Assembly: GCF_024749285.1 (NCBI RefSeq)
Contig: NZ_CP087196.1
Location: 2,418,001 to 2,482,000 of the forward strand
Length of the DNA: 64,000 nt
Direction: 5' to 3'
DNA from: Pseudomonas sp. B21-015
Lineage (GTDB): Bacteria > Pseudomonadota > Gammaproteobacteria > Pseudomonadales > Pseudomonadaceae
Each line of letters opens with the position of its first letter. Within the stretch, counting starts at the first letter, position 1. The notes under the pieces are model-generated. The model ran no database searches, was not told where the DNA came from, and saw only the letters and a program-made list of their open reading frames with translations. Both the position numbers and the translations under genes were made by a program. Shown piece by piece: positions 1,450 to 48,828 of the stretch.

Positions 1450-1852
1450 GGAGATAAACCTCGTCGCGTCTTTAATCGAAAGTGGTTCTGGGTGGACAAC
1501 TCCTGCGTGCCAAGTACGCAACTCAAAGGGCGTACAAGGCTGCTCGCTGACCAGAAGCTTAGGTGGTCAAGTCGGGTTCGGCGGGGAAGACGACGGGATG
1601 AACGATGGGCTCGAGGGGAAAGTGAGCAGGTAAGGGCGAACTGGCGAGCGCATTCGGGCGTCGTGGGCCTTGGTGCGAACTTCAGTGTGGTGCCGGGTTA
1701 CCTAATTACGCTTCCGTCCCTCGGGACAACTTCGTTCCAGTCGGCAACCTCGTCAAACGCACCTTGTGGGCGGTACAGACACGAATCGGCTCGCGGGGTA
1801 GGGTGCGAACGGCGATTCGAAAGCCCTTGCCAGGGCCTCTGATTAGCGGGAG
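1450..1852 (-). other. Long 5' leader of aceA
   Basis: If the promoter at 1860-1888 is used, the aceA messenger starts near 1853 and carries about 400 untranslated bases. I see no convincing gene in this stretch. The reading frames that cross it on the forward strand are antisense extensions of aceA. No clear riboswitch or attenuator was recognised. Confidence 0.4.
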
Positions 1853-30583: not shown

Positions 30584-30681
30584 GCTATCGCGAGCAGGCT
30601 CGCTCCCACAAGGGATTTGTGTCGTACATAACATTGAAATCCACCACAGACCCCTGTGGGAGCGAGCCTGCTCGCGATAGC
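30584..30681. repeat. REP palindrome (GAGCAGGCTCGCTCCCAC type, inverted)
   Basis: GCTATCGCGAGCAGGCTCGCTCCCACAAGG and its inverted copy CCTGTGGGAGCGAGCCTGCTCGCGATAGC, with about 40 bases between. Its orientation matches the element at 26923. Confidence 0.85.
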
Positions 30682-44797: not shown

Positions 44798-44889
44798 CTG
44801 TGGGAGCGAGCCTGCTCGCGATAATGGAGTGTCAGACGACATCATTGTTGACTGGAAGGCCGCCATCGCGAGCAGGCTCGCTCCCACAG
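44798..44889. repeat. REP palindrome (GTGGGAGCGAGCCTGCTCGCG type)
   Basis: CTGTGGGAGCGAGCCTGCTCGCGATAATGG pairs with CCGCCATCGCGAGCAGGCTCGCTCCCACAG. The interior shares GTGTCAG-CA-CATCATTGTTGAC with the element at 45705. Confidence 0.87.
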
Positions 44890-45053
44890 GGGAATGTGTG
44901 TTGATTCGAAGGCTGTGTTTAATAGTGTTTAGCGTTACTTCCTGAAAGCTACAGATCCTTGCGCCGTTGCCTACGACTGCGCCAGAATCCGCCGGCTTGT
45001 GCGCTTTGGGCCTGGTCTTTATCGTTTCCGCATCGCTGCCAATCAGCGATCGG

Positions 45054-45252
45054 GTTTAGCGACTTGAACAGGTATAAGCGCAACAACGCTCCGTCATATT
45101 GCAGGCATTCCATGTCTGCAGTTTCGATATGGTGGCTGTGCGCGGGAGGCCCTCGGGTCTGCCGGGTCTTATACCTCTCGGTTCGCTAACCTGCGTACAG
45201 CCGCCACCCTTACTTGTTTAGCGACAGGTACTGGTGGTTCCATCAGGTATAA
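45054..45252 (+). ncRNA. Structured leader upstream of the DUF6124 gene
   Basis: Positions 45132-45146 (GTGGCTGTGCGCGGG) pair with 45190-45207 (CCTGCGTACAGCCGCCAC) in about 15 pairs with one 3-nt bulge. Two inner hairpins lie between: 45147-45160 (AGGCC/GGTCT-like) and 45162-45181 (CCGGGT...ACC...CGG), giving a three-way-junction layout. Short direct repeats flank it: GTTTAGCGAC at 45054 and 45216, CAGGTATAA at 45069 and 45244. The second CAGGTATAA ends at the gene's ribosome site. I recall similar CTGCGTACAGC-GCCACC leaders before DUF6124/DUF3077-type genes in other pseudomonads. A regulatory RNA is inferred, not proven. Confidence 0.55.
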
Positions 45253-45265
45253 CGGAGACATCACC

Positions 45266-45634
45266 ATGTTCAAAGCCACACCTAACCCGCCAGAAACCGA
45301 CGGCGTTTCCCCCTACGATCCCCTCGATCCCAAAAAACTCCACGAAGCTGCCGAACGCGCCCTCGATCACTACCTCAAACCGTCCGACCCCAAGACCCCG
45401 CGCAAACCGAGCACGATTTACACCGTCGCCCCGGACATCGACATCGAAGAGCTACTGGCCAATGCCTGCGAATCCTTTGCCTCGGCCAAGGTGATCGCCA
45501 GTGACTGCGCCGGGTTTCTGGAGGGGCCGCAGCGCAATACGATACTGGGCGTCGCGCAGCTCATCATGATAGGTGAACTGGCTGTGAGTCGGGCGCTGGA
45601 TAGTCTGGAATTGAAGGCAGCCCCGGCCGTCTGA
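45266..45634 (+). CDS. DUF6124-family small protein
   Basis: A 122-residue protein of a family that I know only as multi-copy, Pseudomonas-restricted DUF6124. MFKATPNPPETDGVSPYDPLDPKKLHEAAERALDHYLKP is the standard N-terminus. The C-terminal half is helical (DIEELLANACESFASAKVIASDCAGFLEGPQRNTILGVAQLIMIGELAVSRALDSLE). The function is unknown; no signal peptide or membrane segment is visible. It is monocistronic, with a GGAG ribosome site, an elaborate folded leader and a UUCG-loop terminator. Confidence 0.85.
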   Translation: MFKATPNPPETDGVSPYDPLDPKKLHEAAERALDHYLKPSDPKTPRKPSTIYTVAPDIDIEELLANACESFASAKVIASDCAGFLEGPQRNTILGVAQLIMIGELAVSRALDSLELKAAPAV

Positions 45635-45704: not shown

Positions 45705-45796
45705 CTGTGGGAGCGAGCCTGCTCGCGATGACGGAGTGTCAGGCAACATCATTGTTGACCGGAAGGCCGCCATCGCGAGCAGGCTCGCTCCCACAG
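45705..45796. repeat. REP palindrome (GTGGGAGCGAGCCTGCTCGCG type)
   Basis: CTGTGGGAGCGAGCCTGCTCGCGATGACGG and its inverted partner; the interior is nearly the same as that of 44798-44889. It separates the DUF6124 gene from the DoxX operon. Confidence 0.87.
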
Positions 45797-46989: not shown

Positions 46990-48828
46990 ATGAACGCCGA
47001 TCTGATTCTGTTCAATGGCCAATTTCATACCGTAGACCGGGAAAAACCGCTGGCCAGTGCCGTTGCGATCAAGGACGGGCGCTTTGTCGCTGTCGGCAAC
47101 GATGCAGAGGCGATGGCCCTGCGCGGCTCGGGCACCCAGGTCATCGACCTCAAGGGCCGTTGCGTCATCCCCGGCCTCAACGACTCGCACCTGCACCTGA
47201 TCCGTGGCGGCTTGAACTACAACCTCGAACTGCGCTGGGAAGGCGTGCCGTCCCTGGCCGATGCGTTGCGCATGCTCAAGGAGCAAGCCGACCGCACACC
47301 GACACCGCAATGGGTACGGGTGGTGGGTGGCTGGAACGAATTCCAGTTTGCCGAGAAGCGCATGCCGACTCTGGAAGAGCTCAATCAGGCGGCGCCGGAT
47401 ACGCCGGTGTTTGTCCTGCATTTATACGACCGCGCGCTGCTTAACCGTGCCGCGCTGCGAGTGGCCGGTTACACCCGCGACACGCCGAACCCGCCGGGCG
47501 GTGAAATCGTGCGTGATGCCAACGGCAACCCGACCGGCATGCTGGTCGCGCGGCCCAACGCGATGATCCTGTATTCGACCCTGGCCAAGGGGCCGAAGCT
47601 GCCGCTGGAATATCAGGTCAACTCGACCCGCCAGTTCATGCGCGAACTCAACCGCCTCGGGCTGACCAGTGCGATCGATGCCGGCGGTGGTTTCCAGAAT
47701 TACCCGGACGATTATCAGGTGATCGAGCAGCTGGCCAAGGACCAGCAACTGACCATCCGCATTGCCTACAACCTGTTCACCCAGAAGCCCAAAGAAGAGC
47801 TGAGCGATTTCCAGAACTGGACCGGCAGCGTCAAGTTGCATCAGGGCGACGACTTCCTGCGGCACAACGGTGCTGGGGAAATGCTGGTGTTCTCGGCGGC
47901 GGACTTCGAGGACTTCCTCGAGCCGCGTCCGGACCTGCCGCAGACCATGGAGCAGGAGCTGGAGCCGGTGGTTCGCCACCTGGTCGAGCAGCGCTGGCCG
48001 TTCCGTTTGCACGCCACTTACAACGAATCCATCAGCCGCATGCTCGACGTGTTCGAGAAGGTCAACCGCGATATTCCGTTCAACGGTTTGCCATGGTTTT
48101 TCGACCATGCTGAAACCATCACCCCGCACAACATCGAGCGGGTGAGGGCGCTGGGTGGCGGCATTGCGATCCAGGACCGGATGGCGTTCCAGGGCGAATA
48201 TTTCGTCGAACGTTATGGCAGCAAGGCGGCTGAAAGCACGCCGCCGATCAAGCGCATGTTGGCCGAGGGTGTGCCGGTCGGTGCTGGCACCGATGCCACG
48301 CGGGTTTCCAGCTACAACCCATGGACGTCGCTGTACTGGATGGTCAGCGGCCGCACTGTCGGTGGCCTGGCGCTGTATGAAGAAGGCCTGACGCGGCAGA
48401 CCGCACTGGAACTGTTCACCCACGGCAGTGCCTGGTTCTCGTCGGAGCAAGGCAAGAAAGGCCAGATCAAGGTCGGACAACTGGCGGATCTGGCGACGCT
48501 GAGCGCGGACTTTTTCAGCGTCGAGGAAGAAGCCATCAAGTGGATCGAATCGGTGTTGACCGTAGTCGGCGGCAAGGTGGTGTACGCCGCCGGCGATTTC
48601 GAAAAACTCGGACCTGCCAGCGTGCCGGTGCTGCCGGACTGGTCGCCGGTGGTCAAGGTGCCAGGGCACTGGCGTCCGGCTTCACCGATGCAGGCGCAGG
48701 TTCACCATTGCAGCGGACCGTGCGCGGTGCATTCCCACAGCCATGAACGAGCGCGTCTGTCGAATGCGCCGGTCAGCGATTTCCAGGGGTTCTGGGGCGC
48801 ATTTGGCTGTTCATGTTTTGCTTTTTAG
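46990..48828 (+). CDS. YtcJ-type amidohydrolase (amidohydrolase family 3)
   Basis: A 612-residue metal-dependent hydrolase. The metal-binding NDSHLHLIRGGLNYN (HxH) is near residue 65. HATYNES and FDHAETI supply later histidines, and GTDATRVSSYNPW holds the catalytic Asp. The substrate is unknown; relatives act on amides, formamides or cyclic imides. The last ~50 residues are an unusual Cys/His-rich tail (VHHCSGPCAVHSHSHERAR ... FGCSCFAF). It is third gene of the doxX operon. Confidence 0.87.
   Translation: MNADLILFNGQFHTVDREKPLASAVAIKDGRFVAVGNDAEAMALRGSGTQVIDLKGRCVIPGLNDSHLHLIRGGLNYNLELRWEGVPSLADALRMLKEQADRTPTPQWVRVVGGWNEFQFAEKRMPTLEELNQAAPDTPVFVLHLYDRALLNRAALRVAGYTRDTPNPPGGEIVRDANGNPTGMLVARPNAMILYSTLAKGPKLPLEYQVNSTRQFMRELNRLGLTSAIDAGGGFQNYPDDYQVIEQLAKDQQLTIRIAYNLFTQKPKEELSDFQNWTGSVKLHQGDDFLRHNGAGEMLVFSAADFEDFLEPRPDLPQTMEQELEPVVRHLVEQRWPFRLHATYNESISRMLDVFEKVNRDIPFNGLPWFFDHAETITPHNIERVRALGGGIAIQDRMAFQGEYFVERYGSKAAESTPPIKRMLAEGVPVGAGTDATRVSSYNPWTSLYWMVSGRTVGGLALYEEGLTRQTALELFTHGSAWFSSEQGKKGQIKVGQLADLATLSADFFSVEEEAIKWIESVLTVVGGKVVYAAGDFEKLGPASVPVLPDWSPVVKVPGHWRPASPMQAQVHHCSGPCAVHSHSHERARLSNAPVSDFQGFWGAFGCSCFAF

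Follow-up and report, generated by a model that had tools for sequence, protein, structure and literature searches.

The folded leader in front of a DUF6124 gene of Pseudomonas sp. B21-015 is a C4 antisense RNA with matching target sites on both sides. With high confidence we regard it as a C4 antisense-RNA switch, laid out like that of phage P1 and apparently blocking the translation of DUF6124, and the genome as a whole is best read as holding a chromosomal, expanded and self-addressed set of C4 translational switches. Analysis of the window, i.e., the whole stretch of 64,000 nucleotides in which the leader lies, and of related loci in this and other genomes revealed the C4 fold, two pairs of target sites, co-variation across loci and species, and a preference of C4s for their own leader.

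Anatomy and folding of the leader

All features of the leader and its gene lie on the + strand. A promoter-like sequence (TTGTGC, 17 nt, TATCGT; 44997..45025), a weak match to the consensus, is located directly upstream of the a1 hairpin and is partly conserved in the alignment of the regions upstream of the genome's C4 loci; since the consensus scan found no sigma-70 site, it is regarded as a putative promoter. Together with the a1 hairpin it places the start of the feature at about 44997-45019, further upstream than the preliminary description had given. The c4-a1b1 element (RF03163; 45019..45070) consists of a hairpin followed by a small hairpin presenting a1, and barely exceeds its gathering score in cmscan (46.8 vs 46.7 bits). 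The a1 target site GTTTAGCGAC (45054..45063), with the core TTAGCGA, is complementary to the linker a' of the C4 RNA at 45183-45189, and the b1 target site CAGGTATAA (45069..45077) is complementary to the C4 P3 loop, the b1 region containing a 9-nt complement to this loop, AGGTATAAG (45070-45078).

The C4 antisense RNA itself (RF01695; 45125..45211) was matched by cmscan with 71.7 bits (gathering score 45, E 5.2e-12) and comprises the P1 stem (45130-45146 with 45190-45206) and the P2 and P3 hairpins, so that the three-way-junction layout recognized earlier is the C4 fold. The closing stem had been rightly located in the preliminary description and wrongly counted: instead of 15 pairs with one bulge and two G-U pairs, the fold gives 17 pairs without a bulge and three G-U pairs. 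At the 5' end of the P1 stem, GGT (45131-45133) fits GGW, the RNase P processing motif reported in the available part of PMC5320573. The P3 loop b' (GTCTTATACCTC, 45166..45177) is complementary to b1 and b2, and the 7-nt linker a' (TCGCTAA, 45183..45189), which joins P3 to the 3' arm of P1, complements the core of both a1 and a2. Downstream, a2 (45216..45225) carries the same word as a1, GTTTAGCGAC, and b2 (45244..45252) repeats CAGGTATAA with an 8-nt complement to b'. As had been noticed from the letters, this second CAGGTATAA lies at the ribosome site: it ends one base before the Shine-Dalgarno sequence GGAG (45254-45257), and the ATG follows at 45266, 54 nt after C4. The two words, occurring once on each side of the stem, are thus the target sites of the C4 RNA; in this order and within 30 bases they are found twice in the 6.59 Mb genome, both times here. 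The earlier proposal of a riboregulator or sRNA is borne out by the Rfam match and by these repeats as its targets.

The gene behind the leader (45266..45634, 122 aa) encodes a DUF6124 protein, as first described (PF19619, 75.5 bits), and its AlphaFold2 model (mean pLDDT 78.7) shows helices at residues 22-37, 60-82 and 88-118, the last two forming a long helical hairpin. At this locus a single DUF6124 gene stands behind C4, and the P1-type arrangement of a short ORF coupled to an anti-repressor gene is absent. A T run, as a possible intrinsic terminator, is absent between a1/b1 and C4 at the window locus, and was for this reason left out of our model; such runs occur there in 10 of the genome's 39 C4 loci (shuffled mean 2.1).

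The elaborate folding that had drawn attention to the leader exceeds chance. The stretch 45054-45265 folds with -88.5 kcal/mol as compared with -65.98 (sd 4.37) in 200 dinucleotide shuffles (z -5.15), none of which was as stable. The C4 part alone (45125-45211) folds with -45.5 kcal/mol into a closing stem and two hairpins, and for the full leader (45019-45290) a single folded block of -107.3 kcal/mol was obtained. A covariation check, set beforehand as a refutation test, found that the pairs covary among the 39 C4 copies of the genome, aligned by MAFFT and given the Rfam structure by way of the window sequence: 91.3% of the cells are paired, 15 of 27 pairs show double changes, and the covariation score is 0.352 against 0.226 in shuffled alignments, no shuffle of 500 reaching it and all slid controls staying at or below 0.138. 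The weakest helix is P3, with 76.4% of cells paired and a double change in one of five pairs.

Two further features of the window are recorded here. The sRNA SrbA (RF02872) was matched at window positions 1617-1843 on the minus strand (86.6 bits, cut-off 69). Inverted pairs of the repeat GTGGGAGCGAGCCTGCTCGCGAT, which we take to be of REPIN type or REPIN-like, flank the C4-DUF6124 unit on both sides (window 44800-44887 and 45707-45794) and occur twice more in the window, near 30587 and 35761.

Copies of C4 and their addresses

The RF01695 search of the genome returned 39 places, 38 over the cut-off and one below. Among the ORFs picked downstream of them, a few of which are short or doubtful (e.g., L009, L030, L038), 21 encode DUF6124, three DUF3077, one QslA and one Bro-N, and the remaining 13 of 39 gave no match, all at E 0.001; an NCBIfam search with eight products likewise gave no match. 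The link to multi-copy DUF6124 genes suspected at first sight is borne out; the genome totals are 29 DUF6124 and six DUF3077 places. When the DUF6124 profile was compared with that of 13 products, either DUF3077 or unassigned, E was 0.0079 at a probability of 5%, and comparison with QslA gave no usable alignment from either the DUF6124 set or the DUF3077/unassigned set, so that a common origin of the controlled proteins is not evident.

Matching of the C4 RNAs to their targets was strongly biased towards the own leader. A match of at least 7 nt between a' and the own a2 was found in 33 of 39 loci; among foreign pairings such matches numbered 48 of 1482, and shuffled targets gave 0.58 per 39 on average. 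For b' and b2, matches of at least 6 nt numbered 28 of 39 with the own and 128 of 1482 with foreign sites, and for a2 and b2 jointly, with a minimum of 6 nt at each, the numbers were 26 of 39 own and 10 of 1482 foreign pairings; six loci fall below the 7-nt a2 match and 11 below the 6-nt b2 match. The 39 places carry 27 different linker words, 23 loci sharing their word with another and 16 not, and the a-word alone is therefore no private address; as judged from the words, a-word and b-word together would nearly constitute one. No other C4 among the genome's 39 fits both a2 and b2 of the window leader by at least 6 nt. The window C4 in turn matches the leader of L036 by 6 nt at both a2 and b2 when wider search ranges are taken, and by 6 and 5 nt in narrower stretches.

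These numbers rest on exact-word matching, which was used in place of a duplex-energy ranking of a' against the leaders that spoke against specificity: the ranking did not separate own and foreign a2 (own rank 1 to 30 of 39), in our opinion because the stem arms in the query dominate. By exact words the own a2 ranked first, alone or with others, in 29 of 39 loci and strictly first in 14, a number kept low by words that recur at several loci. With a word taken at a fixed position, which overlooks linkers displaced by one or two bases, the own a2 was matched in 26 and the own a1 in 22 of the 39 loci, compared with 4 and 11 of 1456 for the others.

Several copies deviate from the complete unit. 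Locus L030 is without an a target and without a recognizable gene, the C4 of L058 is degenerate (37.2 bits), and L051 and L052 resemble 3' halves of C4. In four leaders of the genome a c4-a1b1 match (L053 and L057 over the cut-off, L056 and L049 below) stands before a gene and C4 is not matched at E 0.01. When these four were compared with the resident a-words, only L057 showed a 7-nt match in the a1 loop, namely to the word of the C4s of L009 and L015, with b matches of at most 5 nt; L053 matches the word of L040 by 7 nt, but in the hairpin before a1. The decayed and C4-less copies may represent natural losses.

How the address changes while the gene remains the same was seen in 12 orthologous leaders, those of the window and of L059-L069, whose genes share 88-96% protein identity. 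The a word is identical in the window and in all of L059-L065 and L067-L069. The window and L059-L062 have one b word common to all three places; L063, L065 and L068 have another, with 6-nt matches at b1 and b2, and L069 has the same b' as these with a b2 match of only 4 nt. A third b word is present in L064 (9 and 6 nt) and a weak one in L067 (4 and 5 nt). At this orthologous gene the b word has changed at all three places in several species. In L066, a second copy in Pseudomonas sp. GM18, both the a word (TTCGCAG) and the b word differ, at all three places. The DNA identity of leader and gene is uncoupled, being 98.4% vs 90.7% in L062 and 82.8% vs 95.9% in L069, which suggests that whole leaders may have been exchanged from one copy to another. 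Of the 11 relatives with a protein identity of at least 88%, eight still lie between LysR and DoxX; L062 and L069 retain one of the two flanks and L066 has none, from which it follows that single copies can duplicate or move.

Distribution of C4 and the genes behind it

To the leaders of this genome we added those of 80 DUF6124 loci, the best 80 of 182 relatives, in named Pseudomonas contigs. C4 ends 46-56 nt before the gene in 65 of these 80 loci, which bears out the conservation expected upstream of other DUF6124 genes. It lies further upstream in 12 of 80, at about 500-590 nt in 11 and at about 1.8 kb in one, and was not detected at E 0.001 in three (L110, L113, L116). The DUF6124 genes with a distant C4 are those of L097-L099, L111, L114, L117 (the one at about 1.8 kb), L119-L123 and L125; each of them may be the second member of a tandem gene pair served by a single C4.

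Among 119 distinct leaders (of 120; 39 from this genome and the rest from the 80 DUF6124 loci), there were 88 in which a1 and a2 share a 7-nt word to which a' is complementary, compared with a mean of 7.7 and a maximum of 13 when the C4s were swapped. A b2 word of at least 6 nt was found in 90 leaders (swapped mean 9.2, maximum 16), a b1 word in 63 (10.2, maximum 19) and both in 48 (2.2, maximum 6). Swapping the C4s keeps the relatedness between loci, but acts on the same set.

C4 was detected in 184 of 199 genomes of the genus Pseudomonas (183 over the cut-off), a search in which the counts per genome are lower bounds and which supports presence only. In 40 single-contig genomes chosen by us from the 199, 807 C4 places were found in 38 genomes, with up to 55 per genome, and 615 DUF6124 places in 32; six of the 40 have one to three C4s and no DUF6124. 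The numbers of C4 and DUF6124 correlate across the 40 genomes (Spearman 0.946), genome size being a partial confounder (0.83 with C4 number). Many Pseudomonas chromosomes appear, from their sequences, to carry dozens of C4 switches with differing addresses. Across the order, C4 was present in 8 of 56 genomes including the window's own, the others having 1 to 6 copies in 14 places. In all 12 loci read outside the genus (of the 14 listed), the 7-nt a1/a'/a2 rule is kept and the start codon lies 48-59 nt after C4.

Genes other than DUF6124 and DUF3077 are preceded by C4 as well. At L015, C4 (1501-1587) precedes a Bro-N gene (927-1445) that matches phage anti-repressor families, a kind of gene that C4 is reported to control in phage P1, and at L011 it precedes a 27-aa ORF overlapping a gene of the QslA family of quorum-sensing anti-activators. 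A search of 99 genus genomes other than P. aeruginosa gave 27 QslA-family matches (26 over the cut-off). In 19 of the 27, including all seven above 130 bits, C4 ends about 400-440 nt upstream of the QslA domain; the eight matches without C4 include L362, which is too near a contig end to tell. The QslA loci with C4 are L339-L345, L349, L352, L353, L355-L361, L363 and L364. Matching a1 and a2 words are present in 18 of these 19 loci, and in all 19 an ORF of 27-31 aa starts 52-58 nt after C4. The short ORF is overlapped in 15 loci by a longer one, which begins 8-11 nt ahead of its end; this longer ORF is the QslA gene itself in some loci, and elsewhere the QslA domain lies in a later ORF. In the icd-ant operon a short ORF is coupled to the anti-repressor gene, and the ORF overlap at the QslA loci resembles that coupling. 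Control of a quorum-sensing anti-activator family by the C4 RNA is thus conceivable from this arrangement; in the accessible parts of the papers on QslA, antisense-RNA control of qslA was not found.

Predicted viral sequences also contain the unit. In IMG/VR, 119 stretches encode a DUF6124 relative, and among the 80 examined, relatives with C4 occur. The loci L246 and L255 hold C4-DUF6124 units in predicted viral contigs with more than one C4 match each. These are two of four units inspected, and the gene beside the unit in both is presumably a phage tail assembly gene. DUF6124 was found in one of 50,697 phage records, at the end of that record, and in none of the plasmid records searched.

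Proposed mode of action and relation to known antisense RNAs

In the reading that we prefer, one transcript would carry a1/b1, the C4 RNA, a2/b2 and the DUF6124 gene. The C4 RNA would be cut from the leader, by RNase P at the 5' end of the P1 stem if phages P1 and P7 are a guide, after which a' would pair with a2, and b' with b2 beside the Shine-Dalgarno sequence. This pairing would close the ribosome site on the DUF6124 mRNA, either within one molecule or between sister transcripts, and a1/b1 would offer a second binding site able to hold or buffer C4. The gene would then be off most of the time and would open once C4 runs short or is sequestered at a1/b1. Both release by RNase P and translational repression are modelled here on P1.

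Other modes of action were weighed against this one. The presence of C4 and its targets within one leader, the folding of 45019-45290 as one block and the T runs that separate a1 from C4 at 10 of the 39 loci would also suit a strictly cis-acting attenuator of the P4 CI kind, in which an unreleased C4 pairs within the nascent transcript and decides on termination or ribosome access, and for which P4 CI and IsrK are precedents (PMC4825925, available part). Such an attenuator is unlikely, given that the window locus has no T run between a1/b1 and C4, that the C4 of P1 is described as trans-acting (PMC8546580) and that the C4-like RNAs of A. baumannii look processed from longer transcripts (PMC5320573). 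Alternatively, a1/b1 could be the active regulator, a short leader RNA that would open translation by binding to C4 or to the long transcript in the manner of IsrK, an activity reported in PMC4825925. The four leaders that keep a c4-a1b1 match without C4 and the retention of a1 with a2 in 88 of 119 leaders speak for this possibility, whereas the isrK model (RF01394) was not matched at the window leader (19.4 bits against a gathering score of 50) and no T run follows a1/b1 there, which leaves it about as doubtful as the attenuator.

Chromosomal C4s might instead serve immunity in trans, acting mainly to silence those genes of incoming phages that are under C4 control, in the way in which a P1 prophage acts on a second P1. 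The occurrence of DUF6124 relatives with C4 in IMG/VR contigs, two of four inspected units of which stand beside the presumed tail assembly gene, and the one genomic C4 before a Bro-N/anti-repressor gene would be in line with it. However, the C4s prefer their own cis leader and this fit is maintained by co-variation, which an immunity against outsiders would not need, and we consider this function improbable, more so than the two modes above. Least credible is the earlier suggestion that the leader marks the boundary of a mobile cassette. Similar units are indeed repeated through the genome, the unit lies between two inverted repeat pairs (44800/44865 and 45707/45772) and one copy (L066) is located elsewhere, but 8 of 11 relatives share the LysR and DoxX neighbours, and the direct repeats represent C4 targets rather than unit ends, so that this proposal has been all but abandoned.

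Returning to the self-addressed C4 switches, we tentatively envisage, as one possibility below even chance, that Pseudomonas turned a phage immunity RNA into genome-wide addressable translational switches, up to 55 C4 units per genome, each fitted far better to its own leader by a 7-nt a-word plus a b-word, controlling small proteins (DUF6124, DUF3077, QslA family, Bro-N) and changing addresses by exchange of whole leaders. Because QslA is named as an anti-activator and Bro-N as an anti-repressor family, DUF6124 and DUF3077 may also be small anti-regulators, silenced by C4. The set would amount to a natural library in which dozens of antisense switches differ in their addresses, and to a first regulatory handle on the DUF6124 and DUF3077 proteins, listed in Pfam as of unknown function, and the C4 before QslA connects this RNA with a family that takes its name from quorum-sensing anti-activation.

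The window leader belongs to the known C4 kind, and the self-addressed chromosomal set was not found in print. A search by title and start of abstract, in which subscription journals are mostly uncovered, returned nothing on such a set in Pseudomonas, and the accessible literature on DUF3077 and DUF6124 held no link to C4. Weinberg et al. 2010 (PMC2864571) list both C4 (RF01695) and c4-a1b1, and PMC5320573 cites a prediction of C4-like RNAs in Pseudomonadales. As a positive control, C4 was recovered in phage P1 at 48337-48422 of AF234172 (68.8 bits), with the first ATG 47 nt after it; by eye, TTGACAG is seen on both sides of C4 with its complement in the linker, and b2 runs into the Shine-Dalgarno sequence. 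The C4 of P1 and P7 has the same fold, the same order a1-b1-C4-a2-b2-ORF, the same complementary linker and loop, and b2 at the Shine-Dalgarno sequence, as the window leader. The P1 ORF behind C4 is taken by us to be icd-ant, in keeping with reference titles in PMC8546580. Unlike in P1 and P7, the window C4 is chromosomal, precedes a DUF6124 gene rather than icd/ant, and is one of 38 copies over the cut-off in a genome with 27 linker words.

Similarity to P4 CI and to IsrK/STnc1160 lies in an antisense or structured RNA within the leader of the operon it controls and, for P4 CI, in complementary sites up- and downstream, a likeness taken from the published descriptions. The difference is that P4 CI is reported to cause termination and the short IsrK of Salmonella Gifsy-1 to activate (PMC4825925, available part), the isrK model staying at 19.4 of 50 bits here. 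Also comparable are the Group 1 C4-like sRNAs of A. baumannii, many of which are carried in one chromosome with variable a' loops, as in our genome. In the available part of PMC5320573 their targets are left open, incoming phage or host transcripts being proposed. For Pseudomonas, the sequences offer an answer to this question of chromosomal C4 targets: most C4s are found within the leader of the very gene whose ribosome site they fit, and a and b co-vary.
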